This document shows positions 1,357 to 21,378 of a stretch of 36,511 bases of DNA, in pieces (position 1 is the first letter of the stretch; each line of letters starts with the position of its first letter). Made by a program: the position numbers and the translations under genes. Origin of the DNA: Paludibacter jiangxiensis (GTDB lineage Bacteria > Bacteroidota > Bacteroidia > Bacteroidales > Paludibacteraceae). The stretch covers positions 1 through 36,511 of the forward strand of contig CAMBSB010000035.1 in the NCBI GenBank assembly GCA_945870155.1. The letters are read 5' to 3'. The notes beneath the pieces were generated by a model. That model saw nothing but the letters and a program-made list of their open reading frames with translations, made no database searches and had not been told where the DNA came from.

Positions 1357-1493
1357 CTTAACATTTAATCACTTACACAAAATAATAGATGTCTTTTTCC
1401 TCAACTTTAAAATCCATGACCTGCCGGATTTTGAGTACACAACAGCTTTTTTCACGTCCAGAATACATTCAAAGTACAGCTAAATTATCCGAC

Positions 1494-3974
1494 ATGAATT
1501 GGAATAAAATAACTAAAAAAATATTATCCAAACTCCCCCTACAGGGTTTAGGGGCTCTTTTTCTCTTATTTTCCTCCTTCGATATCTACGTCTCCCCTTC
1601 GGGAAATGACAGGAACAACGGTTCTGCTTCAACTCCAAAAGCCACTGTCTCGTCTGCTTTACGTCAGCTGCGCGAGATGCGTCGACTGAATGCTCCCGGC
1701 ATTGAAAATGGGATCAATATTATTTTAAAAGGCGGAACGTATCATTTTTACGAACCTTTGTATGTTCGTCCCGAAGATAGTGGAACTTCACAGTCGCCTA
1801 CATCGATTTGTGGTGCTGAAGGTGAAAAGGTAATAATTAGTGGAGGTGTGGAAATTATAAATTGGAAAAAATCGGGCAAACTGTTAGTGGCCGATGTTCC
1901 TGATTTCAATGGTCGTCCACTCGACTTTAGGCAGTTGTGGGTAAATGGGAAAAAAGCAGTTCGGGCGCGTGATGTAGCCGATTTTGAAAATATGGAGCGT
2001 ATTATCCGCAATGACAAGGTAAATCAAATACTTTGGGTGCCTGCAAAGGCTGTAAAAGCAATACAAAAAGCTCCATACCCTGAAATGGTATTGCATCAAA
2101 TGTGGGCGGTATCGTTTTTGCGCATAAAATCTATTGATATTCACGGAGATTCTGCTGCTATTCGTTTTCAAACCCCCGAAAGTAAATTGCAATTCGAACG
2201 TCCGTGGCCGCAGCCGATGATTGCTCCTGGTAGAAATTCTGCTTTTTACCTGACAAATGCCTTTGAACTACTCGACCAACCCGGTGAGTGGTTTCACGAT
2301 ATTCGCACTCATAAATTATATTATTATCCGCTTGTGGGTGAAAAAATAAACGAAGCTACAGCTCCAGCCATCGAAACATTGGTAGAAGTAGAAGGAACAA
2401 CCGACCAACCTGTGGAAAACGTTTTATTCAAAAACATACAATTCAGTTATACCAACTGGTTGCGACCTTCGGAAAAAGGACATGTGCCTCTTCAGGCAGG
2501 TATGTATCTGACTGAAGCTTACCGGTTAAATCCTCAGATTGTTCGTGTCGACAATCATAAACTCGATAATCAGGGATGGCTAGGTCGTGGTGCAGCATCG
2601 ATCACAGTTAGTGGAGCTAAGAATATTAATTTTGAAAGTTGTCAATTCGAAAGTCTTGGTTTTAGCGGGTTGGATTATATTACAGGAACTTCAGGAGGAC
2701 TTGTGGAGGGTTGCGTTTTTAAAGATATTGCCGGAAACGGACTGGTTGCAGGTAGTTTTTCGCTGCCATCACTCGAAACGCATTTGCCTTATAATCCGCA
2801 GGACAAACGGGATATTTGCAGCGGATTGACTATTCGGAATAATGTATTCACCAATGTCACGAACGAAGATTGGGGTTGTGTGGCTGTTGCTGCCGGATAT
2901 GTGAAAAATATCAATATTGATCACAACGATATTAGTGATGTTTCATACAGTGGAATAAGTGTGGGTTGGGGTTGGAACCGTAACCTCATTGACATGCAAA
3001 ATAACCGTGTAGTTGCCAATCATATTAATCATTACGCCAAACACATGTACGATGTGGCGGCCATTTATACGCTTGGTGCTCAACCCAAAACGGTAATTAG
3101 TGAAAATTACATTCACGACATTTACTCACCGGGCTATGTTCACGACCCGCATCACTGGTTTTATTTATACAATGATGAAGGTTCATCATTTATAACCGTA
3201 AAAAACAATTGGGTACCTGCCGAAAAGTTCTTGCAAAATGCCAATGGACCAAATAATTTGTGGACAAATAACAATGCCTTTGTACATGATAGCATTATAG
3301 CAAATGCCGGTTTACAGCCCGCTTTTCGACATTTATTGAAAGAAGCAAATACCAAACTCGAGGGAAAACTACAGGAAATTCCACATTTTGCAGCTATCGA
3401 ATTTGTGGCCGAAAATGCAGACACAACACTGATTTTAAGCAGAGCCCGGGCAAACGGAGTAATAAAACCGCAACTTTACAAGTGGAATAATCACACGGTA
3501 TTGTATGCCAAAATGAATCAGGTGGAGAATCTGAAGGGAATTTACAGTAAACTTTTTCCCGGTCTGACAATAAAAGTATATGATAATAGAATGTACCAGT
3601 TTAGCAAATACGAACATTGCAAACAAACTCCCGCCGCCGAATGGGAGCACACGCTACTCACCTGCAATTTGGTGGTTGATGCTAAACTACAACAGGAATA
3701 TATGGATTATCACGTCACTCAGCTTGAAAAATGGCCGGAAATAAGCAAAGGTTTTTGCAATGCCGACTTTCAGCAATTACAGGTTTTTAGAGATGGTCGG
3801 CAGCTGCTACTTGTCATTAGTATTCCAAAAGGCAAAACACTGGCAGAACTAAATCCGAAAACAACCGAAAACAATCCACGTGTAAACGATTGGAATGAAT
3901 TAATGAAAAAATATCAAACCGGAATTGAAGGTACAAAACCGGGTGAAGTGTGGGTGGAATTGACCAAACTGTAG
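1494..3974 (+). CDS. Secreted right-handed beta-helix glycosidase, GH141-like
   Basis: The product (826 residues from the ATG at 1494) is a right-handed parallel beta-helix protein. An upstream in-frame ATG at 1389 would add 35 residues; 1494 is preferred because it places a short basic segment (NKITKK) directly before a hydrophobic core (LGALFLLFSSF), as in a signal peptide. The mature part opens with DIYVSPSGNDRNNG, then LKGGTYHFYEPLYVRP and RQLWVNGKKAVRARD, followed by many Asn-rich helix rungs (NINFESCQFESLG, GLTIRNNVF, NNRVVANHINHY). From family knowledge these fit the GH141 type, which includes an RG-II alpha-L-fucosidase and a xylanase; other beta-helix glycosidases or lyases remain possible. 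Part of the signal region is encoded by a short palindromic repeat (1532-1557). The stop overlaps a hairpin. Confidence 0.75.
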   Translation: MNWNKITKKILSKLPLQGLGALFLLFSSFDIYVSPSGNDRNNGSASTPKATVSSALRQLREMRRLNAPGIENGINIILKGGTYHFYEPLYVRPEDSGTSQSPTSICGAEGEKVIISGGVEIINWKKSGKLLVADVPDFNGRPLDFRQLWVNGKKAVRARDVADFENMERIIRNDKVNQILWVPAKAVKAIQKAPYPEMVLHQMWAVSFLRIKSIDIHGDSAAIRFQTPESKLQFERPWPQPMIAPGRNSAFYLTNAFELLDQPGEWFHDIRTHKLYYYPLVGEKINEATAPAIETLVEVEGTTDQPVENVLFKNIQFSYTNWLRPSEKGHVPLQAGMYLTEAYRLNPQIVRVDNHKLDNQGWLGRGAASITVSGAKNINFESCQFESLGFSGLDYITGTSGGLVEGCVFKDIAGNGLVAGSFSLPSLETHLPYNPQDKRDICSGLTIRNNVFTNVTNEDWGCVAVAAGYVKNINIDHNDISDVSYSGISVGWGWNRNLIDMQNNRVVANHINHYAKHMYDVAAIYTLGAQPKTVISENYIHDIYSPGYVHDPHHWFYLYNDEGSSFITVKNNWVPAEKFLQNANGPNNLWTNNNAFVHDSIIANAGLQPAFRHLLKEANTKLEGKLQEIPHFAAIEFVAENADTTLILSRARANGVIKPQLYKWNNHTVLYAKMNQVENLKGIYSKLFPGLTIKVYDNRMYQFSKYEHCKQTPAAEWEHTLLTCNLVVDAKLQQEYMDYHVTQLEKWPEISKGFCNADFQQLQVFRDGRQLLLVISIPKGKTLAELNPKTTENNPRVNDWNELMKKYQTGIEGTKPGEVWVELTKL
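1532..1557. repeat. GC-rich palindromic repeat inside a signal-peptide coding region
   Basis: ACTCCCCCTACAGGGTTTAG and the following GGGCTC match the palindromic family seen at gene boundaries elsewhere in the window. In frame it encodes LPLQGLGAL, just before and into the hydrophobic core of the leader of the beta-helix glycosidase. Confidence 0.6.
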
Positions 3975-4100: not shown

Positions 4101-5168
4101 ATGAAAATAGGAATATTAGGGCTAGGAGAGGGGCGCAGCACCATTTCGGCAGTTTTAAATAGTAATAAACTGGAACTTGTAAAAATATGCGACCGCAATG
4201 AAGAACTCTGTCTGAAAAGAGCCAAGGAATTTGATTTCCACAGCTACACAACCGATTACAACAATTTGCTGAACGACACTGCAATTGATATTATTGCAAT
4301 TTATACGCCCGACCATCTCCATGCAGAACACATAAAACTGGCTTTGCAGCAAGGGAAACATGTAGTGTGTACCAAACCATTTATCGATAATTTGGCAGAT
4401 GCAAAAGAGCTATTGGAACTCAGCGAAAAATCCGGCAAAAAAGTATTTGTAGGACAAAGTTCACGTTTTTTTGAACCGGCCAAACGCCAACGTGCCGATT
4501 TTGAATCCGGACTCATTGGCAATCTAATAACCATCGAATCGCACTACAATGCCGACCATCGCTGGTTTTTGGGTAAGGGATGGTCACTAGACGATAAGTT
4601 TAAATGGTTGTATGGAGGTTTAAGTCACCCTGTTGATTTTATCCGTTGGTATTTGCCTGATATCAGTGAAGTGATGGGCTATGGAATGATAAGCGAAAAC
4701 GGAATAAAGGCCGGACTGAAAAACGATGATTGTATGCACTTTATTTTCAAAGCAAAGGATGGTCGAATTGCCCGTGTAAGCGGAACATATACCTCTCCAA
4801 CCCAACCATCACAAAGGGAAAGTGAAATGACTTGTATTTTAAGAGGAACTTCCGGGGCTAGTCAGGCCGATTATCATGAACTTAGGTATGCACTTACTTC
4901 AAAAGATGGTGAAGAAAAAATGATTAGCTGGGGTGATAAAGAAGCAAGTTATTATTTCCGCTTCGAAGGTCAAAGTCATCATGCCGGTGAGTATCAGAAT
5001 TATTTGGAATATTTTGCTGAAAGTATTGAAAAGGAATTTACAGCATATCCTGATTTAAAAGAAGGTATAAGAACTGTTGCTTTATTACAAGCTATGGACA
5101 GGTCATTACAAACAGGTATTCCCGTGAAAATCGATGCTATTTTGGCTGAATTTAAGCTTGAAATATAA
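4101..5168 (+). CDS. Gfo/Idh/MocA-family NAD(P)-dependent sugar oxidoreductase
   Basis: This 355-residue protein has the usual family length. The N-terminus MKIGILGLGEGRST is a Rossmann nucleotide-binding motif, slightly altered from GxGxxG. Residues about 88-93 (HVVCTKP) carry the conserved Lys92 of the E/T-K-P motif, and GGLSHPVDFIRWY contains the candidate catalytic His176. No signal peptide is present, so it should act in the cytoplasm. Members oxidise or reduce sugars, inositols and related hydroxy compounds with NAD(P). Between a secreted glycosidase and a sugar transporter it most likely acts on a monosaccharide released by the locus, but its substrate cannot be read from the sequence. 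Confidence 0.88.
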   Translation: MKIGILGLGEGRSTISAVLNSNKLELVKICDRNEELCLKRAKEFDFHSYTTDYNNLLNDTAIDIIAIYTPDHLHAEHIKLALQQGKHVVCTKPFIDNLADAKELLELSEKSGKKVFVGQSSRFFEPAKRQRADFESGLIGNLITIESHYNADHRWFLGKGWSLDDKFKWLYGGLSHPVDFIRWYLPDISEVMGYGMISENGIKAGLKNDDCMHFIFKAKDGRIARVSGTYTSPTQPSQRESEMTCILRGTSGASQADYHELRYALTSKDGEEKMISWGDKEASYYFRFEGQSHHAGEYQNYLEYFAESIEKEFTAYPDLKEGIRTVALLQAMDRSLQTGIPVKIDAILAEFKLEI

Positions 5169-5620: not shown

Positions 5621-6988
5621 ATGGAACATAAAAAAGGAAGTTTAAAAAGTACGATTGCCGTATCGCTTACAAATTATCTGGATGCAGGCGCGATTGTAGC
5701 CGGCGCAAGCGGATTGACTCTTTGGCAAAATTATCTCGGTCTTACCGAAGGGCATCTCGGTTGGTTGAATGCCATAAGTGCCAACTGCTTTGGTGCGGCT
5801 ATTGGTGCGATTATTGGCGGTTTTCTGGCCGACAAATACGGACGAAAAACGATTTACACTTACAATATGCTTGTGTATATGTTGGGGATTGCCATTATTA
5901 TGTTCACGGTCAATTTCCCTATGCTGTTGACCGGATTTCTGATAACAGGTATTTCGGTAGGAGTGGGCGTTCCTGCCTCGTGGACTTATATATCCGAAAA
6001 TTCAGAAGTGGGTAATCGTGGACGAAATATGGGTATTTCTCAGTTTGCCTGGGGAGTGGGTCCGATGATTATTTTATTGTTGGGAATGTTGTTTGCTCCT
6101 GGTAAAGCCGATGCTTCAGCCGGTGTTTTATTCAGTTACGTGCAAAAAATTGCGGCATTCTTTTTAGGAAACGATGCAAGTGTTGAAGCAGTCAATGTAT
6201 TCAGCAGCCGTATCATTTTCGGCTCGCTGTTTATTGTAGCGTTTATAGCTTGGACTTTGCAACGAAAACTCAGTGAATCAAAAGATTGGGAGGAAGCTAA
6301 GTTAATGCAAAGCAAAGAAAAACAACCGGGTATTTTCGCATCGTTCGGAACTCTCTTTACCAATAAAACAAATATTCGCACCATGCTTTTTTTGGCATCT
6401 ATTTACATTACATGGAACATGGTTGCTTCCGTGATGGGTTTCTTTCAACAGCATATTTATGAAACCGCAGGCGGTTTATCCAACGGACAAGCGAATATGG
6501 TAACAGCTATTCAATGGATTGTGATTATTGCGGTAACATATTTCGGCTTTGCTATGTTAGTGGATAAAGTAAATCAGCGTTGGCTGTATTTTACCGGAAC
6601 TTTTATAGGTATTGCAGCCTGGTTTATCCTCATTTTTGTTGGAATAAAAAATTATTCCGCTTTATGGACTTTCACCATTCTGTGGGGAATCCATGCAGGC
6701 ATCAGTGTTCAGGCATTTTACGCGCTTTGGGCATCGGAACTCTTTCCTGCCAGATATCGCGCAGCGGCACAAGGTGTTATGTTCTTTGCCGTGAGAGGTA
6801 TAGCGGCAATATGGGGATTGGTATTCGTTAATATTTATGGTAAAAACGGCGAAGGATTTAATACAGCGGCCTACATTATGATTGGATTGCTCTTTATCGC
6901 ATTGATAATTGGAACTATCTGGACGCCTAATACCCGCGGCAAATCATTGCAACAAATAACAAAAGAAAGATACGGAGATGAAATATAA
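5621..6988 (+). CDS. Major facilitator superfamily sugar transporter
   Basis: The ATG at 5621 (MEHKKGSLKSTIAVSLTNYL) gives 455 residues; an in-frame ATG at 5558 would add 21 unlikely polar residues. About twelve hydrophobic segments are visible. The loop after TM2 carries GGFLADKYGRKTIY, the MFS signature GxLaDrxGRk, and the sixth-loop region contains QRKLSESKDWEEAK. The late motif ALWASELFPARYRAAAQGV resembles the PESPR-like region of sugar porters. It should import a sugar or small oligosaccharide across the inner membrane, driven by an ion gradient. It is followed, after a pair of palindromic repeats, by a rhamnosidase without signal peptide, so a rhamnosylated oligosaccharide or rhamnose is a reasonable guess. 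Confidence 0.88.
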   Translation: MEHKKGSLKSTIAVSLTNYLDAGAIVAGASGLTLWQNYLGLTEGHLGWLNAISANCFGAAIGAIIGGFLADKYGRKTIYTYNMLVYMLGIAIIMFTVNFPMLLTGFLITGISVGVGVPASWTYISENSEVGNRGRNMGISQFAWGVGPMIILLLGMLFAPGKADASAGVLFSYVQKIAAFFLGNDASVEAVNVFSSRIIFGSLFIVAFIAWTLQRKLSESKDWEEAKLMQSKEKQPGIFASFGTLFTNKTNIRTMLFLASIYITWNMVASVMGFFQQHIYETAGGLSNGQANMVTAIQWIVIIAVTYFGFAMLVDKVNQRWLYFTGTFIGIAAWFILIFVGIKNYSALWTFTILWGIHAGISVQAFYALWASELFPARYRAAAQGVMFFAVRGIAAIWGLVFVNIYGKNGEGFNTAAYIMIGLLFIALIIGTIWTPNTRGKSLQQITKERYGDEI

Positions 6989-7108: not shown

Positions 7109-9262
7109 ATGAATAATTCCTCTTCTTCACCTATCTGGATTTGGTATCCGGGCGATTACGAAATTTGGTTAGGAAATCAAATGAACAACCGCCGTACCGA
7201 ACGTGGAGCGTTTTTCCCCCATTTCTGGAAAATGGACAGCCATTATGTGTTGGTGGAATTCAGTAAAAAAATAGATTTAGCAGTTGCCGAAGAAATAGAA
7301 ATTGCCGTTGAAGGAACATTCAATATTAAGTTGGACGGAAAACTTCAATTTGGTATGCCTAAAAAATTTTTGCTGCCAGCCGGAAAGTATAATTTAAGTA
7401 TCAAAGTATGGAATCAGGCAACTCCACCAACCATTTTTATCAATGGAAAAACAGTAAAATCGGACAACAGTTGGAAAGTAACTTACGAAGATAAAGAATG
7501 GATAGACGAAAGCGGAAAAGCCAGCGATACTTCGGCTACTATCTATATGGATGCTGGGGGTTGGGTCGATTTTGATGCAGCCGACAAACTTCCTTCGCTA
7601 TACAAACTGGCTACCGAAGAGCGCAAAGCCGTGGCAGTAAGCTATGCTCAGGGCGGTCGATTAATTGATTTTGGGAAGGAAACCTTCGGGTTTCTGCGCT
7701 TTTCTGCGCTATCGGGCAAAGGAAAAATCAATATCTATTACGGCGAAAGCAAAGAAGAAGCTTTGGATACTGAATTTTGCGAAACACTCGACCAACTCAT
7801 TGTTGATGGCAACAAAGTAACCGACGAGGCATTGGCAATTACTTGCTTCATTGAAGAAATTTACACTTTGGCTAACAGCAAAGCATTTCGCTATGTGTAT
7901 ATAACCAAAGATGATGGCGTGGACTTCAAAGAACTGAGCATGATGTATGAGTTCAAACCCGAAGTGCAGCGAGGTTCGTTCAAATGTAATGATGAGGAAG
8001 TGAACCAAATATGGAACGTTGGAGCTTATACCATGCAACTCACCACCCGTGAATGCTTTATCGACGGAATTAAACGCGACCGCTGGATATGGAGTGGCGA
8101 TGCTTATCAGAGCTACCTGATGAATTATTACCTGAGCTTCGATTCGCAGACCGTGAAAAATACCACCTGGGCATTGCGTGGAAAAGATCCGGTGACCAGT
8201 CATACCAATACTATTCTGGATTACACCTTTTTTTGGTTCCTTGGCATTTACGATTACTATATGTACACCGGCGACCGGCATTTCATTTCGCAGGTGTATC
8301 CGCGTATGCAAACCCTGATGGATTATGTGCTCGGACGAACCAATGTTAACGGCATGGTGGAAGGTCAAACCGGCGATTGGGTGTTTGTGGATTGGGCTGA
8401 TGACTTTATGGATAAACACGGAGAGCTGTCTTTTGAGCAGGTATTGTTTGCCAAAAGTCTGGAAACCATGGCGCTGTGTGCCGATTTGGTAAAGAATAAC
8501 ACCGACAAAGTGAAGTATGCTGGATTGGCATTGGCTTTGCGCGATAAACTCATTCCGGCATTCTGGAATGAAACAAGACAAGCATTGGTTCATAATCGCC
8601 TCAACGGAATTCAGCAGGAACAGATTACGCGCTATGCCAATATGTTTGCCTCGTTCTTCAATTATCTGACTCCCGAACAACAGCAACAAATTAAAGTTTC
8701 AGTACTTTTGAATGATTCCGTTATGAAAATAAGTACACCATACATGCGTTTCTACGAACTGGAAGCCCTGTGTACATTGGGCGAACAAAAGGAAGTAATG
8801 AAAGAAATGAAAGCCTATTGGGGCGGCATGATACGCGAAGGAGCAACTTCGTTCTGGGAAAAATACAACCCAACCGACAAAGGCACGCAGCATTTAGCCA
8901 TGTATGGTCGCCCTTATGGCAAAAGCCTTTGCCATGCCTGGGGAGCCAGTCCGATTTATTTGTTGGGAAAATACTACCTTGGCATTCAACCCGTAAAAGC
9001 AGGTTACTCAGAATTTTCTATTACTCCAACACTTGGTGGACTGAAATGGATGGAAGGAACAGTTCCAACTCCTAATGGGGAAATCAAACTCTACATGAAC
9101 GAAAATACCATCAAAGTTACAGCCACCGAAGGTAAAGGTTATCTGACTTTCACCAGCAAATCAAAACCAAACGCTTCCAAAGGTATAATTGAGAAAATGG
9201 ATGATAATAAATATCGGTTAATGATTGATGAAAAAGAGGAAGTGGTGGTGAATTACAAATAA
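7109..9262 (+). CDS. Cytoplasmic alpha-L-rhamnosidase-like glycosidase, GH78 type
   Basis: This 717-residue protein has N-terminal beta-sandwich regions (about 1-290), an (alpha/alpha)6 barrel (about 300-630) and a C-terminal beta domain with SEFSITPTLGGLKWMEGTVP, the usual GH78 order. It lacks a signal peptide (MNNSSSSPIWIW), so it should act on imported oligosaccharides. The active-site segment reads DGIKRDRWIWSGD (Asp319, Asp324, Asp331); in characterised enzymes such as Bacillus RhaB the residue matching Asp324 is the general acid Glu. The late Glu of the family is probably Glu584 in TSFWEKYNP. The Asp variant is, to my knowledge, common in some GH78 subgroups, so activity is not excluded. 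It probably forms an operon with the methyltransferase-like gene 14 bases downstream. Confidence 0.82.
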   Translation: MNNSSSSPIWIWYPGDYEIWLGNQMNNRRTERGAFFPHFWKMDSHYVLVEFSKKIDLAVAEEIEIAVEGTFNIKLDGKLQFGMPKKFLLPAGKYNLSIKVWNQATPPTIFINGKTVKSDNSWKVTYEDKEWIDESGKASDTSATIYMDAGGWVDFDAADKLPSLYKLATEERKAVAVSYAQGGRLIDFGKETFGFLRFSALSGKGKINIYYGESKEEALDTEFCETLDQLIVDGNKVTDEALAITCFIEEIYTLANSKAFRYVYITKDDGVDFKELSMMYEFKPEVQRGSFKCNDEEVNQIWNVGAYTMQLTTRECFIDGIKRDRWIWSGDAYQSYLMNYYLSFDSQTVKNTTWALRGKDPVTSHTNTILDYTFFWFLGIYDYYMYTGDRHFISQVYPRMQTLMDYVLGRTNVNGMVEGQTGDWVFVDWADDFMDKHGELSFEQVLFAKSLETMALCADLVKNNTDKVKYAGLALALRDKLIPAFWNETRQALVHNRLNGIQQEQITRYANMFASFFNYLTPEQQQQIKVSVLLNDSVMKISTPYMRFYELEALCTLGEQKEVMKEMKAYWGGMIREGATSFWEKYNPTDKGTQHLAMYGRPYGKSLCHAWGASPIYLLGKYYLGIQPVKAGYSEFSITPTLGGLKWMEGTVPTPNGEIKLYMNENTIKVTATEGKGYLTFTSKSKPNASKGIIEKMDDNKYRLMIDEKEEVVVNYK

Positions 9263-9276
9263 AGATCAAAATAAAA

Positions 9277-10347
9277 ATGACATTTAATCCCTTACTTGGC
9301 AATTCAATTTTGCCCGTAGATATAGTTTTGTTGCCTGAATGGTGGCACAAAAACGAAGGAATCTCCTTTGACAAAGACTTTTTTTGTCATCCATTGAAGC
9401 GGGTGGAGGTAGAGCAACAAAAAGAAAAAGTGCTTTATGAACGCTGGGGAAGATATGGTTTAGGACAACACCGAAACGAAGATCGTCCTGAAATTGGCGC
9501 TGTGCATTTGGCTGCCGGTTTTTTGCTTTCTGAAATGCTGGGTTGTGAAGTGAATTACTCCGAAGGTCATCCGCCACAGGTATTGGCAGCGCACAAAGAA
9601 TTGGAAAACGTAAGCGTGGAAGAAGCATTCAATTCCGATGCTTTTAAAAATGTACTCAAACTAAGTGAAGCATTAAAGTCGAAATACGGACATGTCACCG
9701 GCGATATCAACTGGGGTGGTGTTTTGAATATTGCCATGGATTTGCGGGGTGAAAGTATTTTTACGGACATGATGATGACTCCCGATGACGTTAAAGTATA
9801 TTTTGATTCTATAGCTGCTGTGATTCAGAAATTTACACACTTTTTACAAACCGAAACAGGCTCAACATCCGTGTCGGTAAATCGAGTTATTAGTCATCTC
9901 AAAAAACCTGTGTTATTGCATTCGCAATGTTCGCACACCATGATTTCGGCTGAAGATTACGAGGAATTTTTATTGCCCTACGATATTGCCTGGAGTAGTT
10001 ATCGACCTTACGGAATTCACTATTGCGGACCCGATCCGCATCGCATGGCTGCCAGTTTCGCCAAAGTTCCGCAACTCGATTTTCTGGATGTGGGCTGGGG
10101 TGGTGATGTGAAAATATTGCGTCAACATTTGCCTGATACATTTCTGAATATTAGACTTAGTCCGGTAGAATTGGCTAAACAAACCAAAGAAGAAATTCAA
10201 CAGACCATAATTTCGTTGGTGAAAGATTCGGCAAATCCTTATCTGACAGGTGTTTGCTGTATTAATATTGATGATTCGGTAAGCGATGATAAAATTGATA
10301 CGATTTTTGAAACGGTGGAGGAATTAAGAAGAACCCCTAACCCCTGA
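9277..10347 (+). CDS. UroD/MtaA-fold protein with zinc methyltransferase site (first of two)
   Basis: The 356-residue product has the TIM-barrel uroporphyrinogen decarboxylase/methylcobamide:thiol methyltransferase fold. IHYCG provides His248-x-Cys250 and GVCCIN provides Cys327/328; His-x-Cys plus a Cys about 77 residues later is the zinc site known from MtaA/MtbA-type methyltransferases and is not part of true heme-pathway decarboxylases. Other family-like segments are TGDINWGGVLNIAMDLRGE and DVGWGGDVKILRQHLP. It starts 14 bases after the rhamnosidase and precedes a second, divergent member, so it belongs to sugar metabolism here rather than heme synthesis. A methyl-transfer role is inference; no corrinoid protein lies in the window. 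The final residues RRTPNP come from a palindromic repeat, so the original C-terminus has probably been altered. Confidence 0.75.
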   Translation: MTFNPLLGNSILPVDIVLLPEWWHKNEGISFDKDFFCHPLKRVEVEQQKEKVLYERWGRYGLGQHRNEDRPEIGAVHLAAGFLLSEMLGCEVNYSEGHPPQVLAAHKELENVSVEEAFNSDAFKNVLKLSEALKSKYGHVTGDINWGGVLNIAMDLRGESIFTDMMMTPDDVKVYFDSIAAVIQKFTHFLQTETGSTSVSVNRVISHLKKPVLLHSQCSHTMISAEDYEEFLLPYDIAWSSYRPYGIHYCGPDPHRMAASFAKVPQLDFLDVGWGGDVKILRQHLPDTFLNIRLSPVELAKQTKEEIQQTIISLVKDSANPYLTGVCCINIDDSVSDDKIDTIFETVEELRRTPNP

Positions 10348-10357
10348 AGGGGAATTA
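10332..10357. repeat. Palindromic repeat overlapping a gene end
   Basis: AACCCCTAACCCCTGAAGGG plus GAATTA matches the boundary palindrome family. It encodes the last residues (TPNP) and the TGA stop of the upstream methyltransferase-like gene. Confidence 0.75.
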
Positions 10358-10415
10358 AGGATATATTAAGTTCAATTTTAATACATTGCCATTTGAAATA
10401 TAACAAAAGATGAAA

Positions 10416-10497
10416 TGAACCACAAAAGAATACAGTAGTCAAAAAAAGAATTAATTTTCAATATTGAAAATTCCCTTTTGTGTTCTTTTGTGGTTCA
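10416..10497. repeat. Nested palindromes between the two UroD-like genes
   Basis: A perfect 15-bp inverted repeat (TGAACCACAAAAGAA at 10416-10430 with TTCTTTTGTGGTTCA at 10483-10497) encloses a perfect 20-bp palindrome, AATTTTCAATATTGAAAATT (10453-10472). It fills much of the 238-base gap 10348-10585. It may act as a terminator or processing hairpin, or be a small mobile palindrome. Confidence 0.75.
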
Positions 10498-10585
10498 ATA
10501 TTTTTTTTATGGTAAAGTCAATTATCTAAAATAATTCAATATAATATTTTATAATCTTCTCTAATGGGGAAGTCTGGAGTGGCTT

Positions 10586-11713
10586 ATGGCAAAACAATTC
10601 GACAATAAACTTGCTGATTCACAGGCAACACAGGTGCTGCCTGTTAAACCTGAGAATTTTGATTTCGATAAATACGAGGCTTATGCTGCGGGACTAAATA
10701 AAACCTGTGCTGATTTTTGGCAGCAGAAATCAGGTGTGGTAGTCTATCGGCGTATACGGGTGGCTGAATGTTTTTCGTATGGTTGCAGGGATATGAAACA
10801 TTCGCTGGAACTTCAACTGGGAGCATTACAAAAAAGTATGCTTTTTAAAGCTGATGTTCCCAACTTTTTAGAACCGTGGTACGGCATTGGCACCATTGCA
10901 AGCGCTTACGGTGGCAATTATGTCTGGCACGATGGTCAGGCACCCGCGCTGCAAACCCGTTTCAATTCTATCGACGAAATATTGGCTTACGAACCGCTGG
11001 AAGTGGCAAAAACCAATATTGGCCGTCATACGCTCGATATGATTGCATATTTTATGGAGAAAACCAAAGGTCGTGTTCCCATTTCGCTCACCGACACTCA
11101 ATCGCCACTCAATATGATTGGGCATTTGTATCCACTCGATCAGTTTTTTATGGATACCATGATGGAACCTGACAAAGTTATGGAACTTTTTAATAGACTT
11201 GCCAATTTATCAATACAGTTTAATCAAGAACAAACGAAGCTTATTGGTTCTGCATTGGCTTCGCCCGGACATGGATTTGCATCATCTACTCAATGGACAG
11301 GGTTGGGAATGAGCGACGATAATGCCATTATGATTGCCCCTGAACAATACCTCGAAATGGCTGCACCTTCGGTGGAAAAAATTTGTAAACCGCTTGGTGG
11401 ACCTGTTTTCCATTCCTGTGGCGATTGGGGAAATTGGGTGGAAGCAGTGTTGAAAATGAAAGGATTGAAAATGGCTGATGGAGCATTTTCACCTCAAACC
11501 GACCCGGGAGCAAATACCAACTTAGAAGCATTTAATAGTTTTGCAAATACGGGTGTAGTACTCAATACCCGCATTGTGGGTGACTTAGAAACCATCAGTG
11601 AGCAACTCAAAAGACTTTGGGTGCCGGGCATGAAAATGGTGGTAGTCACGTATTGCGAAACGCCCGAAGAACAGGAAGAAGCATACCATTTAATCCACGA
11701 AATATGTCAGTAA
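10586..11713 (+). CDS. UroD/MtaA-fold protein with zinc methyltransferase site (second of two)
   Basis: The 375-residue protein is a second member of the UroD/methylcobamide methyltransferase fold but clearly diverged from its upstream neighbour. FHSCGDW supplies His276-x-Cys278 and TYCETPEEQ supplies Cys357, again the His-x-Cys...Cys zinc arrangement with about 79 residues of spacing. LTDTQSPLNMIGHLY and the FFMDTMMEPDKVMELFNRL segment are typical of the family. No signal peptide. Its last codons overlap the ATG of the following hexuronate-type transporter by ten bases, implying coupled translation. Paired members could act as donor-side and acceptor-side methyltransferases, as in methylotrophic and O-demethylase systems, but the substrate is unknown. 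Ordinary heme synthesis is unlikely from context and from the zinc motif. Confidence 0.75.
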   Translation: MAKQFDNKLADSQATQVLPVKPENFDFDKYEAYAAGLNKTCADFWQQKSGVVVYRRIRVAECFSYGCRDMKHSLELQLGALQKSMLFKADVPNFLEPWYGIGTIASAYGGNYVWHDGQAPALQTRFNSIDEILAYEPLEVAKTNIGRHTLDMIAYFMEKTKGRVPISLTDTQSPLNMIGHLYPLDQFFMDTMMEPDKVMELFNRLANLSIQFNQEQTKLIGSALASPGHGFASSTQWTGLGMSDDNAIMIAPEQYLEMAAPSVEKICKPLGGPVFHSCGDWGNWVEAVLKMKGLKMADGAFSPQTDPGANTNLEAFNSFANTGVVLNTRIVGDLETISEQLKRLWVPGMKMVVVTYCETPEEQEEAYHLIHEICQ

Positions 11714-12957
11714 AAATTGGGAATTACCGTTGGCGCATTGTGTTGTTACTGTTTTTTGTGACCACTATCAATTATATCGACCGTCAGGTTTTGGGTATTT
11801 TGGCTCCACAACTTCAGGTGCAGTTTGGTTGGTCCGAAGCCGATTATGGTTTTATTATCATGGCTTTTCAAGCTGCTTATGCCATAGGATTAATTTCAAT
11901 GGGTGCATTACTCGATAAAATTGGCACACGATTGGGATTTATTATCTCGGTGGCTTTACTTAGTGTTGCCGGAATGTTTCATGCGGCATTTAGCAGTGTG
12001 GTGGCTTTTGCTATAGCCCGATTCGGACTGGGTATCGGCGCATCTGCCAATTTCCCTGCAGCCATCAAAACTGTGGCTGAATGGTTTCCTAAAAAGGAAA
12101 GAGCCATTGCCACAGGACTTCTGAACACAGGTTCGAATCTTGGTGCCATACTTACACCGCTTATTGTTCCCATTATTGCTCTGAAATGGGGCTGGCAGTG
12201 GGCATTTATTTCGGCAGGTGCATTGGGTTTTGTGTGGTTGTTTTTTTGGATAATAACTTACCGCAAACCGGAGGAAAACAAAAAACTCAGCGCCGTAGAA
12301 CTCGATTATATTTTGCAGGATGAAAAAGAACCGGAAACACAAAAACTTCCTTGGAAATCAATTATTTCATACAAACAAACCTGGGGAATCTGTTTGTCAC
12401 GTTTTCTGACTGATCCCATCTGGTGGTTTTTCCTGTATTGGTTACCTAAATACCTCAATTCCAATTATCAAATAGACCTAACAAAAATTGGTTTGCCGCT
12501 TATTGTTATTTATGTAGTGTCAATGGGCGGTTCTATTTTCGGTGGTTGGTTTTCATCTTACCTGATTAAGCGTGGTAAAAATCCATTGGCGGCACGTAAA
12601 CTTACCATCTTTTTAATGGCAATATTGGTTGTGCCTATCTTTTTTACTTCATTCACTTCCAATATGTGGTTGGCCGTAGCGCTAATTTCGATGGCAACTT
12701 TTGCGCATCAAGGTTACGCTGCCAATATCTTCACCATTGTATCGGATATTTATCCAAAAAATGCTGTTGGTTCTGTTACCGGACTTGCGGGATTTTCAGG
12801 AGCAATTGGCGGTGTGTTATTTTCTGGAGCCGTAGGCTTGATTCTGCAAATTACAGGCAGTTATTATGTGGTTTTTGCCATTGCCAGTTTGGCTTATTTG
12901 CTTTGTTGGTTGTCGCTATATTTGTTCGTGCCGAATAATCAGAAAATTGAGATGTAA
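11704..12957 (+). CDS. MFS transporter, hexuronate (ExuT/ACS) type
   Basis: Starting at the ATG at 11704 gives MSVKIGNYRWRIVLLLFF and 417 residues; the longer frame from 11617 lies inside the upstream gene. TTINYIDRQVLGILAPQLQ and the following GLISMGALLDKIGTRLGF are characteristic of the anion:cation symporter family that includes ExuT and GudP, and ASANFPAAIKTVAEWFPKKERA is its conserved middle motif. About twelve membrane segments are present. The family imports galacturonate, glucuronate, other sugar acids and some organic acids with protons. Next to pectin-type enzymes a hexuronate or acidic sugar is likely. The gene overlaps the preceding methyltransferase-like gene by ten bases, and it ends only five bases from the oppositely oriented ribB. 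Confidence 0.85.
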   Translation: MSVKIGNYRWRIVLLLFFVTTINYIDRQVLGILAPQLQVQFGWSEADYGFIIMAFQAAYAIGLISMGALLDKIGTRLGFIISVALLSVAGMFHAAFSSVVAFAIARFGLGIGASANFPAAIKTVAEWFPKKERAIATGLLNTGSNLGAILTPLIVPIIALKWGWQWAFISAGALGFVWLFFWIITYRKPEENKKLSAVELDYILQDEKEPETQKLPWKSIISYKQTWGICLSRFLTDPIWWFFLYWLPKYLNSNYQIDLTKIGLPLIVIYVVSMGGSIFGGWFSSYLIKRGKNPLAARKLTIFLMAILVVPIFFTSFTSNMWLAVALISMATFAHQGYAANIFTIVSDIYPKNAVGSVTGLAGFSGAIGGVLFSGAVGLILQITGSYYVVFAIASLAYLLCWLSLYLFVPNNQKIEM

Positions 12958-13586: not shown

Positions 13587-13607
13587 ATTATTTATTTTAC
13601 AAATTTA

Positions 13608-13645
13608 CAGGTTTTTACAAACAAATAATTGTTTATAAAAACCTG
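13608..13645. repeat. Palindrome in the ribB leader
   Basis: CAGGTTTTTACAAACAA and TTGTTTATAAAAACCTG pair over 17 bases with one mismatch around ATAA. It begins about 15 bases after the ribB -7 box, so it lies in the leader RNA or forms an operator. The leader is about 65 bases, too short for a complete FMN riboswitch. Confidence 0.7.
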
Positions 13646-13659
13646 TTTAAAAAGAGCTG

Positions 13660-13667
13660 CAAAGATA
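13660..13667 (-). promoter_or_regulatory. -7 box of ribB
   Basis: Minus-strand TATCTTTG (followed by C) exactly matches TAnnTTTG and lies in the gap between the isomerase stop and ribB. No TTG is evident at the ideal upstream spacing. Confidence 0.5.
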
Positions 13668-13678
13668 GCAAATAATTT

Positions 13679-15094: not shown

Positions 15095-15130
15095 ATTTTT
15101 TGTATTTTTTATGTTCTTGTTTTTAGTCTT

Positions 15131-16612: not shown

Positions 16613-16651
16613 TTTTTGAGATAAAAGAGTAAAGAACAAAGAATAAAGACA

Positions 16652-18639: not shown

Positions 18640-21378
18640 ATGAAACTAAGAAAGGTTTTATTTTTATTTTTTGCAATAAATATTTCTGTTTGTGTTTGGA
18701 GCGAAAATGTTTATGTGTATACTTTTCAGAATGCATCAAATCGCGTGCAATTTGGCGTTGAAATATTGAGTAAATCGTTGAAAGAAAAGGGTTTTTCGGT
18801 TGAAAAGAAATATCAAAATCGCATTTCAAAAAAAGAAAAAACAGTTTTTGTTTTCGAACAAAGTCAAGTTCCTACAGCATCCAAACTACTCAAGAAACTT
18901 AAAATCATACTTCCTCAAAATCTAAAAAAAGAAGGCTTTAATATTCAAACCAAAGGCAATGTTACCATTATTTGTGGAGCCGATGGCAATGGTGCAATAT
19001 ATGGTTGTCAGGAACTAATTGACCGACTGAAAGATAGCAAAAAACTGGATTTGCCTTTAAATTTGACCGATGCGCCCGAAATGGTGTTGCGCGGAACGGC
19101 TATAGGCGTACAAAAACCTTACTATTTACCAGGACGAACAGTTTACGAATATCCATACACCCCTGAAAACTTCCCCTGGTTTTATGACAAAGCACAGTGG
19201 ATAGAATACCTCGACATGCTGGTTGCCAACCGCATGAACTCGCTGTATTTATGGAACGGACATCCGTTTGCATCGCTGGTAAAACTGAAAGATTACCCTT
19301 TTGCGGTGGAAGTGGACGATGCTACATTTAAAATGAACGAAGAAATATATTCGTTTCTGACCCACGAAGCTGATAAACGCGGCATTTTTGTTATTCAAAT
19401 GTTTTATAATATCATTGTTTCAAAGCCTTTTGCAGAACATTACGGCATTGCCACACAAGACAGAAACCGGCCAATAACGCCATTAATAGCCGATTATACT
19501 CGCAAAAGTATAGCTGCATTTATCGAAAAATATCCCAATGTGGGATTGCTTGTATGTCTTGGCGAAGCGATGGATACTTACGAAGACGATGTAAAATGGT
19601 TTACCGAAACCATTATTCCCGGCGTAAAAGATGGTTTGAAAACATTAGGCAGAAATGATGAGCCGCCCATTCTGCTTCGTGCTCACGATACTGATGCTAA
19701 AATGGTGATGGATGCGGCTTTGCCTCTCTACAAAAACCTGTACACCATGCATAAATACAATGGTGAAAGTTTAACAACTTACGAGCCGCGTGGTCCATGG
19801 GCAAAGATTCATACCGATTTAAGTTCGCTGGGAAGTATCCATATTAGTAACGTACATATTTTAGCCAATTTGGAACCTTGGCGCTGGAGCTCACCTGATT
19901 TTGTGCAGAAAGCAGTAAAAGCCATGCACAATATCCATGGAGCAAATGCATTACACTTGTATCCTCAAGCTTCGTACTGGGATTGGCCTTACACAGCCGA
20001 CAAACTACCAAACGGCGAACGTCAAAAACAAATTGACCGTGACTGGATGTGGTACAAAACATGGGCACGTTATGCATGGAAAGCTGACCGTAATCGGGTT
20101 GATGAAATAAAATATTGGAACTCGCAAATTGACAATTATTATGGCGTAAATGAAGCTGATGCATGCCGTATACAACGTGCATACGATGAAAGTGGCGAAA
20201 TTGCTCCAAAACTGTTGCGACGATTTGGTATTACCGAAGGAAACCGCCAAACACTTTTACTGGGAATGTTTATGGCTCAACTCGTGAATCCATATAAATA
20301 CACCATTTATCCCGGATTTTATGAAAGTTGTGGTCCTGAAGGTGAAAAGCTGATTGAATATGTGGAAAAAGAATGGAAAAAACAACCCCATGTAGGCGAA
20401 ATGCCTCTCGATATTATTGCTCAGGCAATTGCTCATGGCGACAAAGCCATTGCTGCCATCGATTCAGTTGCTGGTAAAGCAACCAAAAATAAGGACGAGT
20501 TCAAACGACTTCAAAACGATATGCATTGCTACCGTGAGTTTGCTTATTTCTTTGAAAATAAGGTAAAAGCTGCCAAACTTGTGCTCGATTATCAATGGGG
20601 AAAAGAAATTAGCAAGCTTGATGCGGCTATTCCATATATTGAAAAAAGTTTGGAACATTATAAGAAATTAGTTGATTTGACAAAGGATACTTATTTGTAT
20701 GCAAACAGTATGCAAACAGCTCAAAGAGCTATCCCAATAAGTGGTTTGGATGGAAAAAATAAAACATGGGAAGAAATGTATATTTATTTTCAGAACGAGC
20801 TGGAAAACTATAAAAAAAATCTTTCTATGTTGAAAACTCATCTTAACGCGCCTGTTAAGAAAACACTTATTCCTGCTTTAGCTGTTGCAAATGTAAAACT
20901 GATTAGCAAGAATACTACGATAAAATTTCGTTCAGGGGATTCATTATACTCTGATTATCCTTCAAAAATTATAGAATTTGCTCCGGAATTAGCTAATATG
21001 ACTCCCTGGTTTATGAACTCAAATGCGCAAAGGGAAAATGGTACTGCTGTTGAATTTGAGACTGATAAACACGTAAAATTGCTAATTGGTTATTACAGAG
21101 ATGATCATCGCCGTTTTGCGAAAGCACCTAAACTCGAAACAGATGCCTCTGCAAATCTTTACAGCCAAGCCGAACCTGTACTGTTTAATGCCATAAGTAT
21201 TGACGGTTTACCTCCTGTCAATGTTCATGCATTTCATTTTGAAGCAGGTTATCATAAATTATTATTACCTAAAGGATTAATAATGGTGATTGGATTCACC
21301 AATGCAGATATTATGCAGAGAAATGCCGGTCTTGCAGGTTTAGATAAAGACGAAAGCATGGATTGGATGTTTAATTAA
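18640..21378 (+). CDS. Secreted alpha-glycosidase resembling GH138 (alpha-galacturonidase)
   Basis: The ATG at 18640 gives MKLRKVLFLFFAINISVCVW, a clear signal peptide, and 912 residues. An N-terminal alpha/beta domain like that of GH67/GH20 enzymes (about 25-145, with GADGNGAIYGCQELIDRL) precedes a (beta/alpha)8 barrel (about 150-560). Candidate catalytic acids are Glu309 in CLGEAMD and Glu376 in YNGESLTTYE. Their 67-residue spacing equals that of the two catalytic Glu residues I recall for the GH138 structure (Glu294 and Glu361); this needs an alignment. Helical and C-terminal beta domains follow. GH138 removes galacturonic acid from chain A of RG-II. The gene lies near a propeller-GH2 gene, as GH138 does in B. 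thetaiotaomicron as I recall. An alpha-glucuronidase-type activity or a new family is the alternative. Confidence 0.6.
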   Translation: MKLRKVLFLFFAINISVCVWSENVYVYTFQNASNRVQFGVEILSKSLKEKGFSVEKKYQNRISKKEKTVFVFEQSQVPTASKLLKKLKIILPQNLKKEGFNIQTKGNVTIICGADGNGAIYGCQELIDRLKDSKKLDLPLNLTDAPEMVLRGTAIGVQKPYYLPGRTVYEYPYTPENFPWFYDKAQWIEYLDMLVANRMNSLYLWNGHPFASLVKLKDYPFAVEVDDATFKMNEEIYSFLTHEADKRGIFVIQMFYNIIVSKPFAEHYGIATQDRNRPITPLIADYTRKSIAAFIEKYPNVGLLVCLGEAMDTYEDDVKWFTETIIPGVKDGLKTLGRNDEPPILLRAHDTDAKMVMDAALPLYKNLYTMHKYNGESLTTYEPRGPWAKIHTDLSSLGSIHISNVHILANLEPWRWSSPDFVQKAVKAMHNIHGANALHLYPQASYWDWPYTADKLPNGERQKQIDRDWMWYKTWARYAWKADRNRVDEIKYWNSQIDNYYGVNEADACRIQRAYDESGEIAPKLLRRFGITEGNRQTLLLGMFMAQLVNPYKYTIYPGFYESCGPEGEKLIEYVEKEWKKQPHVGEMPLDIIAQAIAHGDKAIAAIDSVAGKATKNKDEFKRLQNDMHCYREFAYFFENKVKAAKLVLDYQWGKEISKLDAAIPYIEKSLEHYKKLVDLTKDTYLYANSMQTAQRAIPISGLDGKNKTWEEMYIYFQNELENYKKNLSMLKTHLNAPVKKTLIPALAVANVKLISKNTTIKFRSGDSLYSDYPSKIIEFAPELANMTPWFMNSNAQRENGTAVEFETDKHVKLLIGYYRDDHRRFAKAPKLETDASANLYSQAEPVLFNAISIDGLPPVNVHAFHFEAGYHKLLLPKGLIMVIGFTNADIMQRNAGLAGLDKDESMDWMFN

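Follow-up and report, generated by a model that had tools for sequence, protein, structure and literature searches.

OdmB and VdmB, named as corrinoid-dependent aromatic O-demethylases of the UroD superfamily (PMC10418091), are among the closest described counterparts of the proteins examined here. For a polysaccharide-derived sugar, the 6-O-methyl-galactose of porphyran, oxidative O-demethylation is ascribed to cytochrome P450 (PMC10033563, PMC12316285), and the mechanism of anaerobic sugar demethylation is called undiscovered in a 2025 paper (PMC12316285). BT0997 and BT1002 act on rhamnogalacturonan-II (RG-II), and Bacteroides thetaiotaomicron reportedly builds up 2-O-Me-Xyl-Fuc (PMC7939467). 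In our search of the full-text literature, with subscription journals mostly outside its scope, no report of corrinoid-dependent sugar demethylation was found among the matches listed (titles and abstract starts). Uronic acids of RG-II reportedly carry methyl ethers, as O'Neill is said to have described in 2020.

We analysed a window, that is, the whole stretch of 36,511 nucleotides from Paludibacter jiangxiensis, which encodes two divergent URO-D-fold proteins, UroD1 and UroD2. An earlier note had raised the possibility that they form a two-component pair stripping methyl ethers from sugars through a corrinoid protein, and had named 2-O-methyl-xylose and 2-O-methyl-fucose as methylated sugars of RG-II; its underlying observation is confirmed, and its interpretation as a whole is partly supported. 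On balance, we consider it probable that both proteins are zinc-dependent methyltransferases of the cytoplasm, each specific for its substrate, and that they belong to a system for corrinoid-dependent O-demethylation operating during RG-II degradation.

The RG-II locus and its two UroD genes

By homology, the window is an RG-II degradation locus, since it encodes close relatives of BT_1002 (5mqp) and BPa0997 (6hzf), a 5mt2/5mui-type domain and a 3cih-type rhamnosidase:

1389..3974, plus strand: enzyme of GH141 fucosidase type that ends in a rhaM (mutarotase) domain (PDB 5mqp 'Glycoside hydrolase BT_1002', E 7.7e-255)
4101..5168, plus strand: GFO/IDH/MocA oxidoreductase (Pfam)
5621..6988, plus strand: MFS transporter of a different type from that at 11704..12957 (Pfam, NCBIfam)
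7109..9262, plus strand: alpha-L-rhamnosidase (Pfam Bac_rhamnosid domains; PDB 3cih 'Putative alpha-rhamnosidase', 1178.7 bits)
9277..10347, plus strand: UroD1, 356 aa, divergent URO-D-fold protein, predicted methyltransferase (MT-I type)
10405..10515, plus strand: strong, terminator-like hairpin with a U-run behind it, in the gap separating UroD1 from UroD2 (-33.2 kcal/mol, z -5.85)
10586..11713, plus strand: UroD2, 375 aa, divergent URO-D-fold protein
11704..12957, plus strand: MFS transporter of acid-sugar type, 417 aa (best NCBIfam match TIGR00893 'D-galactonate transporter')
18640..21378, plus strand: alpha-galacturonidase of BPa0997/BT0997 type (PDB 6hzf/6hze BPa0997, 1329.6 bits over 7-911)
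22274..26518, plus strand: multidomain enzyme, 1414 aa, with an N-terminal domain as in PDB 5mt2/5mui (616.4 bits over 32-383), then GH2 and malectin domains (Pfam)

The first of these products matches Pfam PF21231 (GH141_M), with PF05336 at aa 763-860. We take the rhamnosidase to be GH78-type, the galacturonidase to be a GH138 enzyme, and the transporter downstream of UroD2, whose TIGR00893 score of 258.9 bits lies under the cut-off of 395, to be ExuT/DgoT-like. By eye, the N-terminus of the galacturonidase resembles a signal peptide. An apiose pathway considered for the minus-strand genes at 12963-18420 was dropped, the FGGY kinase there being a glycerol kinase.

As the earlier note had described, the two genes lie between the rhamnosidase and the transporter, and the 3' end of UroD2 overlaps the transporter start (11704) by 10 bases. 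The hairpin that separates them may give the two genes separate transcripts. The tandem order is not general: two genomes of the order sample carry UroD1 on one contig and UroD2 on another. From 132 relatives in genome contigs, 80 UroD1 loci were kept; UroD2 went undetected in 56 of these, some of them shortened by contig ends, which counts against a fixed two-component pair. L054/L036, L094/L038 and L097/L042 are apparently identical contigs that appear twice, their lengths and positions being equal. Across 395 genomes of the phylum, UroD2 was matched in its own genome, and two further hits were partial (E 4.5e-37 and 3.7e-33).

The neighbourhoods differ between loci with and without UroD2. 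The acid-sugar-type transporter immediately follows UroD2 in 14 of 24 UroD2 loci versus 0 of 56 loci devoid of UroD2 (p 1.3e-9), and GH138 occurs in 16/24 UroD1+UroD2 loci versus 5/56 (p 2.9e-7). The galacturonidase and acid-sugar transporter beside UroD1 and UroD2 point to an O-methyl-galacturonic acid (MeGalA) of RG-II as substrate, and not to 2-O-methyl sugars. The methylated-glycan setting proposed earlier stands, given the relatives of solved RG-II enzymes, but the sugars named are not supported; other divergent UroD-like genes occupy the places expected for the use of 2-O-methyl-xylose and 2-O-methyl-fucose. Our initial guess, 4-O-methyl-glucuronate, was ranked behind MeGalA since the 900-aa enzyme is BPa0997-like. 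SSS transporters and GFO/GH109-like genes also occur next to UroD1, which must therefore have settings other than MeGalA, and L037, one of the four order-sample UroD2 genes, has no nameable sugar gene nearby.

Family placement and zinc motif

Both proteins score above the curated cut-off of 23.9 bits for Pfam URO-D (PF01208; UroD1 25.7 bits, UroD2 38.3 bits), and profile-profile alignment (hhalign) with nine MtaA-like/Mlp-type UroD proteins gave E 1.9e-14 for UroD1 and 6.9e-13 for UroD2. Single-sequence and profile searches of solved structures yielded no useful match, the best true relative being a UroD at E 0.25; it is Pfam and hhalign that place the two proteins in the superfamily. A place in the heme pathway was rejected, neither protein matching TIGR01464 (HemE) at E 0.01. 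Against the NCBIfam MtaA/CmuA models TIGR01463 and NF004889, UroD1/UroD2 reached at best 20.4/30.4 bits, below the cut-offs of 235.4/244, and both fall outside the Mlps in a FastTree phylogeny of 31 sequences, a small midpoint-rooted tree whose rooting is uncertain. These placements bear on the idea that UroD1 and UroD2 act in sulfur or selenium methyl metabolism, the role assigned to type 1 mlp clusters by Kountz and Balskus (PMC10418091). Superfamily, His-Cys-Cys motif and corrinoid partner would be common to both, yet the small tree does not group UroD1 and UroD2 with Mlps, and their nameable neighbours are glycosidases and sugar transporters, with no sulfur or selenium gene among the named ones (many ORFs are unnamed); we regard this role as extremely unlikely.

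The putative zinc ligands are as follows:

10018..10026, plus strand: UroD1 zinc motif His248-Tyr-Cys250, aligned to the Mlp H-x-C
10255..10260, plus strand: UroD1 Cys327-Cys328, either one the presumed third zinc ligand
11411..11419, plus strand: UroD2 zinc motif His276-Ser-Cys278
11654..11656, plus strand: UroD2 Cys357, presumed third zinc ligand (profile-profile and ortholog alignments)

In profile-profile alignment, the His-x-Cys...Cys of both proteins falls on the Mlp zinc-motif positions, and the residues singled out in the earlier note (His248/Cys250/Cys327 and His276/Cys278/Cys357) are in place. H248, C250 and C327 are present in all 74 aligned UroD1 sequences, the window's own included, a basis set by ORF calling that missed UroD1 in several high-GC loci. 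Cys327 and Cys328 are adjacent and both conserved, the Mlp Cys pairing with a different one depending on the alignment method. In UroD2, H276 and C278 occur in 24/24 sequences covering these positions; C357 occurs in 22 of 25 orthologs (L, V or S in the other three), and L039, a fourth ortholog lacking it, has Ser there. Conservation of the third ligand of UroD2 is accordingly not strict.

A His-Cys-Cys set is reported for S-methyltransferases, one or both Cys being replaced in UroD-type O-methyltransferases (PMC10418091). The Cys replacement that this rule leads one to expect of a UroD-type O-demethylase (MT-I) is not seen here, UroD1 keeping His-Cys-Cys in 74/74 sequences and UroD2 differing at the third position in 3/25. 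Taken alone, the motif, being of the S-methyltransferase type in that scheme, speaks against ether cleavage by UroD1 and UroD2, and its earlier use as an argument for ether demethylation is not supported. Two other UroD-like groups depart from it: the 'MWEH' family (H-x-D) carries Asp in place of the second ligand, and in the RhaT/RhaM-linked UroD paralogs (H-C-H) a His lies close to where the third Cys would be. Both changes resemble the replacements reported for O-methyltransferases.

UroD1 and/or UroD2 could accordingly be MT-II enzymes that pass the methyl group of methyl-Co(III) to a thiol, e.g. homocysteine, sugar demethylation being left to the MWEH or the RhaT/RhaM-linked genes. The motif shared with Mlp/MtaA enzymes and the Asp and His substitutions of the other two groups fit such an arrangement. 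However, an Mlp or homocysteine methyltransferase already adjoins the corrinoid gene in most corrinoid modules viewed, which makes a further MT-II unneeded; the neighbours of UroD1 and UroD2 are sugar enzymes and a sugar transporter, and some UroD2 orthologs do without the third Cys. We deem an MT-II function unlikely, and prefer sugar O-demethylation for UroD1 and UroD2 themselves.

Candidate corrinoid partners and gene linkage

Within the window no corrinoid or activator gene was matched, in agreement with the earlier note, which had suggested searching the genome for corrinoid and RamA-like genes. Both exist there: contig C158 encodes a corrinoid protein, MtaA-like (Mlp-like) and MtaB-like proteins, a CobW-like GTPase and the activator RACo, and the absence of a corrinoid partner from the genome is thereby rejected. 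This cluster lies on another contig than UroD1 and UroD2 and, with its MtaB-like gene, would fit methanol use.

In an order sample of 198 genomes, the corrinoid subfamily was defined by the 24 genomes scoring above 320 bits (35 pass E 1e-40). By tests that ignore phylogeny, it is present in 7/7 genomes with UroD1/2 versus 17/191 others (Fisher p 1.6e-7), in 6/6 versus 17/191 when the own genome is left out (p 1.3e-6), and in 7/7 versus 28/191 at the looser cut-off of E 1e-40 (p 3.2e-6); RACo, likewise tested, occurs in 5/7 versus 9/191 (p 1.6e-5). The PF02607 domain, found in 163/198 order genomes and mostly MetH-sized among the matches listed, is as such no evidence for a demethylation system. 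Fifty of the 80 UroD1 loci, picked by eye, were surveyed for RACo and PF02607. A RACo/PF14574 activator occurs in 29 of these genomes and PF14574 is missing from 21, while 39 short-type corrinoid genes are spread over 34 (counted by hand); 3/50 lack both the PF14574 activator and the short corrinoid type. Twenty of the 39 genes were viewed in context, those left out being the ones known beside UroD1 and some others.

Could the corrinoid modules of pectin loci serve methanol from methyl-esterified pectin through an MtaB route, with UroD1 and UroD2 performing an unrelated task? An MtaB-like gene is present in the C158 cluster and inside the RG-II locus L185. But MtaB was matched neither in the 80 UroD1 loci (E 1e-8) nor in the stretches of L186, L167, L171, L172 and L195, and the co-occurrence tracks UroD1/2 and not GH138 alone, as the corrinoid subfamily is found in one of the four order-sample GH138 genomes that lack UroD1/2 (small numbers). 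We hold a methanol role to be quite improbable.

Gene order in some relatives joins the two systems. Runs of UroD2-transporter-MtaC-Mlp (L186), UroD1-MtaC (L094) and RACo-Mlp-CobW-UroD1 (L062) were found, and L052 carries on one strand MtaC-Mlp-MetH-activation-GH141-(282-aa ORF)-GH78-GH127-UroD1-UroD2-(93-aa ORF)-GH138. L195 and L185 are RG-II loci with corrinoid modules inside, but with other UroD-like genes, and MetH-activation-like genes adjoin several corrinoid genes in relatives. The neighbourhood survey yields corrinoid runs and RG-II genes in some relatives, but a corrinoid gene in only 5 of the 80 UroD1 loci (three of the five being close relatives, and many loci being shortened by contig ends). 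Together, the corrinoid and activator genes in the same genome, the order-sample co-occurrence and the shared gene runs sustain the proposed cobalamin link.

Some of these counts would suit cobalamin-independent sugar enzymes, e.g. a lyase or decarboxylase that needs zinc and acts on an acidic sugar, the corrinoid association being indirect ecology: 75/80 UroD1 loci, many cut short by contig ends, gave no corrinoid match, and the 21/50 genomes devoid of a PF14574 activator agree. Against it stand the presence of one corrinoid subfamily in 7/7 order-sample carriers, the head-to-tail arrangement with genes for corrinoid proteins, Mlp and RACo that distant genomes show, and the conserved zinc motif of methyltransferase type; we find it very unlikely.

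Proposed route and comparison with known systems

In the corrinoid-dependent O-demethylation that we favour, a secreted GH138-type galacturonidase and other glycosidases, going by homology, would release the acidic sugar of side chain A, and the acid-sugar-type transporter, as the gene run suggests, would bring it in. UroD1 and UroD2 would each bind a methyl-ether sugar at the zinc site, most likely mono- or di-O-methyl-galacturonic acid, and transfer the methyl group to Co(I) of the MtaC-type corrinoid protein from contig C158. From the neighbours in relatives, homocysteine or tetrahydrofolate would be the next acceptor; the enzyme would vary with the species, being an MtaA-like Mlp in some and a homocysteine S-methyltransferase or pterin-binding methyltransferase in others. 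Re-reduction of the corrinoid would fall to RACo or to a free-standing activation protein of MetH type.

A broader scheme, which we put forward tentatively and hold to be possible though not probable, is that RG-II-degrading anaerobes remove methyl ethers independently of O2 with a set of UroD proteins: UroD1+UroD2, with the GH138-type galacturonidase and acid-sugar transporter, for mono-/di-O-methyl-galacturonate; MWEH for 2-O-methyl-xylose, together with GH31 and a sodium:solute symporter; and, for 2-O-methyl-fucose (or the 3-O-methyl-rhamnose of fern/lycophyte RG-II), the UroD linked to RhaT/RhaM, all via one corrinoid protein and with methyls ending on homocysteine or folate. If true, the methyl ethers of the plant wall would be a one-carbon source, and such a route could explain the use of methylated sugars by oxygen-free bacteria.

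As general background, OdmB and VdmB work with a corrinoid protein, a second methyltransferase and a reductive activator. UroD1 and UroD2 share with them the UroD superfamily and, as proposed, partners of these kinds and the reaction R-O-CH3 + Co(I) -> R-OH + CH3-Co(III). They differ in that the substrate would be a sugar ether, the genes lie in RG-II loci and usually apart from the corrinoid gene, and the zinc motif is His-Cys-Cys. With MtaA/MtbA/CmuA and the type 1 mlp clusters, as presented in PMC10418091, they have the URO-D fold with its His-Cys-Cys motif in common, and C158 and the corrinoid modules of relatives resemble type 1 clusters in holding Mlp-like, corrinoid and activator-like genes; in contrast to these systems, UroD1 and UroD2 score below the NCBIfam cut-offs, lie outside the Mlp group and occur in a glycan rather than a sulfur/selenium context. 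The P450 system also takes a methyl ether off a polysaccharide-derived sugar, but it uses a monooxygenase, releases formaldehyde and is reported from aerobic bacteria. The window encodes relatives of BT0997 and BT1002 from the RG-II system of B. thetaiotaomicron (PMC7939467, PMC12282258) as well as of further RG-II enzymes, and the RG-II loci L196 and L197, which gave no UroD or corrinoid match, look like the B. thetaiotaomicron type. Finally, the split cobalamin-dependent methionine synthase and glycine betaine demethylase MtgBCDE (PMC12478193) is alike in that its corrinoid, homocysteine and pterin modules are separate and connect demethylation with methionine or folate, and differs in that its methyl-donor enzyme is a pfam06253 methyltransferase and its hosts are aerobic marine bacteria.

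The RG-II locus and the zinc site of UroD1 and UroD2

Judging by its gene content, the window is very probably a rhamnogalacturonan-II (RG-II) locus, because it encodes relatives of BT0997/BPa0997, BT1002, 5mt2/5mui and 3cih.

Gene content of the window
1389-3974, plus strand: GH141 enzyme with a C-terminal rhaM domain (Pfam), match to 5mqp
4101-5168, plus strand: GFO/IDH/MocA oxidoreductase
5621-6988, plus strand: MFS transporter
7109-9262, plus strand: alpha-rhamnosidase, match to 3cih
9277-10347, plus strand: UroD1
10586-11713, plus strand: UroD2
11704-12957, plus strand: acid-sugar-type MFS transporter
12963-18420, minus strand: one run of RibB, fucose-isomerase-like protein, glycerol kinase and split transketolase
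18640-21378, plus strand: 912-aa enzyme of the BPa0997 type
22274-26518, plus strand: 1414-aa enzyme, N-terminus matching 5mt2/5mui

The 912-aa enzyme, not named by Pfam, scores 1329.6 bits against the solved enzyme BPa0997 by sequence comparison, and we take GH138 to be the family number of this type. The GH141 enzyme matches 5mqp, 'Glycoside hydrolase BT_1002', with an E of 7.7e-255, and its L-rhamnose mutarotase domain (aa 763-860) makes it a glycosidase-mutarotase fusion. In passages of PMC7939467, BT0997 is an RG-II alpha-galacturonidase and BT1002 an RG-II fucosidase. The glycerol kinase of the minus-strand run is GlpK, with a score above the cut-off. Since the closest named relative of UroD1 among the matches listed is encoded in a Paludibacter MAG (85% identity), the source organism is probably an anaerobic member of the Bacteroidales. 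Between UroD1 and UroD2, a strong, terminator-like hairpin with a U-run after it lies at 10405-10515 (-33.2 kcal/mol, z -5.85), and the two genes may therefore not share a transcript.

UroD1 and UroD2 barely exceed the Pfam URO-D cut-off, no NCBIfam methyltransferase model matches them above its cut-off, and HemE gives no match at all. Profile-profile alignment with nine UroD proteins of the MtaA-like/Mlp type yields an E of 1.9e-14 for UroD1 and 6.9e-13 for UroD2, the H-x-C motifs and later Cys of both falling on the Mlp positions. The His-x-Cys...Cys zinc motif that the earlier note had read in both proteins is thus borne out, with H-C-C in 74/74 UroD1 sequences; for UroD2, all 24 sequences that reach the H-C positions have both residues, and 22 of 25 retain the third Cys. 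Within the UroD superfamily, His-Cys-Cys is described for S-methyltransferases, while one or both Cys are replaced in O-methyltransferases (Kountz and Balskus, in passages of PMC10418091). Several other UroD paralogs of the genome holding the window have non-HCC sites: the RhaT/RhaM-linked type carries H-C-H, and the MWEH family, which has no Pfam match and can be aligned with UroD1 through its profile (E 1e-9), carries H-x-D. The predicted site of UroD1 and UroD2 is a thiol-type one retained inside a sugar operon, and this His-Cys-Cys site keeps alive the alternative that one or both are MT-II enzymes, which pass the methyl group from methyl-Co(III) to a thiol. Mlp-type UroD proteins with an F-x-C instead of an H-x-C zinc motif and an extra C-terminal extension, thioredoxin-like in the first, are encoded at L057 5384-7003 (minus strand) and L062 1520-2953, two fetched loci.

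Candidate corrinoid partners and gene neighbourhoods

The earlier note proposed UroD1 and UroD2 as a corrinoid-dependent sugar O-demethylation pair, which calls for a cobalamin-dependent partner, and the genome has one since contig C158 encodes a 222-aa corrinoid protein, an Mlp-like UroD and the genome's one corrinoid activator (RACo), together with an MtaB-like protein, a CobW-like GTPase and a 229-aa protein resembling carriers of the Met_synt_B12 activation domain. The only other PF02607 corrinoid protein is MetH-sized (1184-aa frame), and URO-D matches number 14, UroD1 and UroD2 included.

A genome-contig scan returned 132 UroD1 relatives, of which 80 loci were kept, with titles from Bacteroidota, Planctomycetota, Kiritimatiellia, Spirochaetota and others; neighbours were linked by self-set phmmer thresholds (E 1e-8 or 1e-6) and a simple ORF caller. 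UroD2 occurs in 24 of the 80, immediately downstream of UroD1 and in the same orientation in 19, and the acid-sugar transporter directly follows UroD2 in 14 of the 24; none of the 56 loci without UroD2 showed this transporter. GH138 is present in 16/24 loci with UroD2 and in 5/56 loci with no detected UroD2, and some of these 56 have SSS transporters or GFO/GH109-like genes. Because so many UroD1 settings lack UroD2 or GH138, the substrate range of UroD1 must be wider or different there.

An MtaC-type corrinoid gene is present in the fetched stretch of 5/80 UroD1 loci, where gene density predicts 0.2 (P 2.4e-6). Three of these five loci are closely related to one another, and three independent cases give P 0.0012. 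The corrinoid gene directly follows UroD1 in L094. In L051, L052 and L055, corrinoid and Mlp genes precede GH141, GH78, GH127, UroD1, UroD2 and GH138, all on one strand except for one opposite-strand ORF in between in L051, and two of these three corrinoid modules include a MetH-activation gene. L062 (Calditrichaceae) has RACo, Mlp, CobW and UroD1 in order, the CobW end overlapping the UroD1 start.

Of 39 short-type corrinoid genes in the UroD1 genomes, 20 were examined, and six of them adjoin sugar transporters or glycosidases.

Corrinoid genes adjoining sugar genes
L186: UroD2, transporter, MtaC, Mlp
L185: 1414-type, GH138, GH78, GH141, MetH-activation, MtaC, symporter, MWEH, GH31, MtaB
L172: GH31, MWEH, symporter, RhaT/RhaM-linked UroD, RhaM, RhaT, MtaC, Mlp, MetH-activation
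L167: RhaT/RhaM-linked UroD, RhaM, three ORFs, RhaT, MtaC, Mlp, MetH-activation
L171: RhaT, MtaC, Mlp, MetH-activation
L178: GH127-like, MtaC, Mlp-type, CobW-like, UroD of the RhaT/RhaM-linked type

A UroD paralog adjoins the corrinoid gene in L175 and L182. The other 12 neighbour Mlp, homocysteine methyltransferase, MTHFR/pterin-binding or other genes, with no nameable glycosidase or sugar transporter directly beside them, many ORFs being unnamed; L177 has a GFO-like gene a few genes away. The control L195, from a genome without UroD1/2, carries on one strand GH31, MWEH, symporter, MtaC, Mlp, MetH-activation, GH141, GH78 and GH138. Neither L196 nor L197 (both RG-II loci) nor L198 (a GH138 locus) gave a UroD or corrinoid match within the stretch examined.

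Co-occurrence across genomes

All counts for the order come from one even set of 198 genomes. Of these, 6 carry UroD1 and 4 carry UroD2 (7 have at least one of the two), 14 have RACo, 24 have the MtaC subfamily at over 320 bits and 8 have a GH138-type enzyme. The UroD1-UroD2 tandem is broken in two of these genomes, and one UroD2 gene (L037) lacks the transporter. By tests that ignore phylogeny, the MtaC subfamily occurs in 7/7 UroD1/2 genomes versus 17/191 others (p 1.6e-7; 6/6 and p 1.3e-6 with the window's own genome excluded; 7/7 versus 28/191 and p 3.2e-6 at a looser E of 1e-40), RACo in 5/7 versus 9/191 (p 1.6e-5) and GH138 in 4/7 versus 4/191 (p 3.8e-5). As only one of the four GH138 genomes without UroD1/2 has the MtaC subfamily, these small numbers suggest an association with the UroDs more than with RG-II degradation in itself. 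A PF02607 domain alone is unspecific (163/198). Across phyla, and without a matched control, RACo is found in 29/50 UroD1 genomes, some PF02607 match in 50/50, the short MtaC type in 34/50 (hand count) and RACo or the short type in 47/50.

A putative modular system and its candidate substrates

The simplest reading of these gene arrangements would be a modular corrinoid methyltransferase system, in which several UroD-fold enzymes, each substrate-specific, would serve one corrinoid protein and share the second step and corrinoid reactivation. The methyl end acceptor may vary: PF02574 and Met_synt_B12 activation proteins suggest homocysteine in the L174 type, and MTHFR and a pterin-binding protein suggest folate in the L183 type. 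L174 (6820-10508) has consecutive MtaB, MtaC, homocysteine S-methyltransferase and MetH-activation-domain genes, a row resembling a split methionine synthase fed by methanol, and L183 (6474-9617, minus strand) has MtaC, a pterin-binding protein and an MTHFR with a DUF5981 domain.

For UroD1/2, the GH138-type galacturonidase and the acid-sugar transporter give a hint of the substrate. Mono- and di-methyl-etherified GalA is reported in passages of PMC9640925, and two enzymes for the two methyl groups of GalA is an attractive but speculative role for the pair. Contig C13 of the same genome holds a GH31-MWEH-symporter set, which would serve MeXyl, and a UroD-RhaM-RhaT set, which would serve MeFuc or 3-O-methyl-rhamnose, a sugar known in lycophyte and pteridophyte RG-II (in passages of PMC12168206). 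There, L015 (3667-11708) is a single run of GH31, MWEH (H-x-D, UroD-like), a symporter-like gene, RhaT/RhaM-linked UroD, RhaM and RhaT, a candidate set for 2-O-methyl-xylose and 2-O-methyl-fucose. On contig C7, L014 (6388-11454) interleaves UroD-like genes or fragments with genes that, by eye, resemble a galactokinase and the transporter FucP.

Among the full-text literature matches listed, there was no report of corrinoid-dependent demethylation of sugar ethers, and nothing on RG-II loci or the UroD1, UroD2 or MWEH families in a demethylation role. Corrinoid-dependent O-demethylation itself is already known for aromatic ethers.
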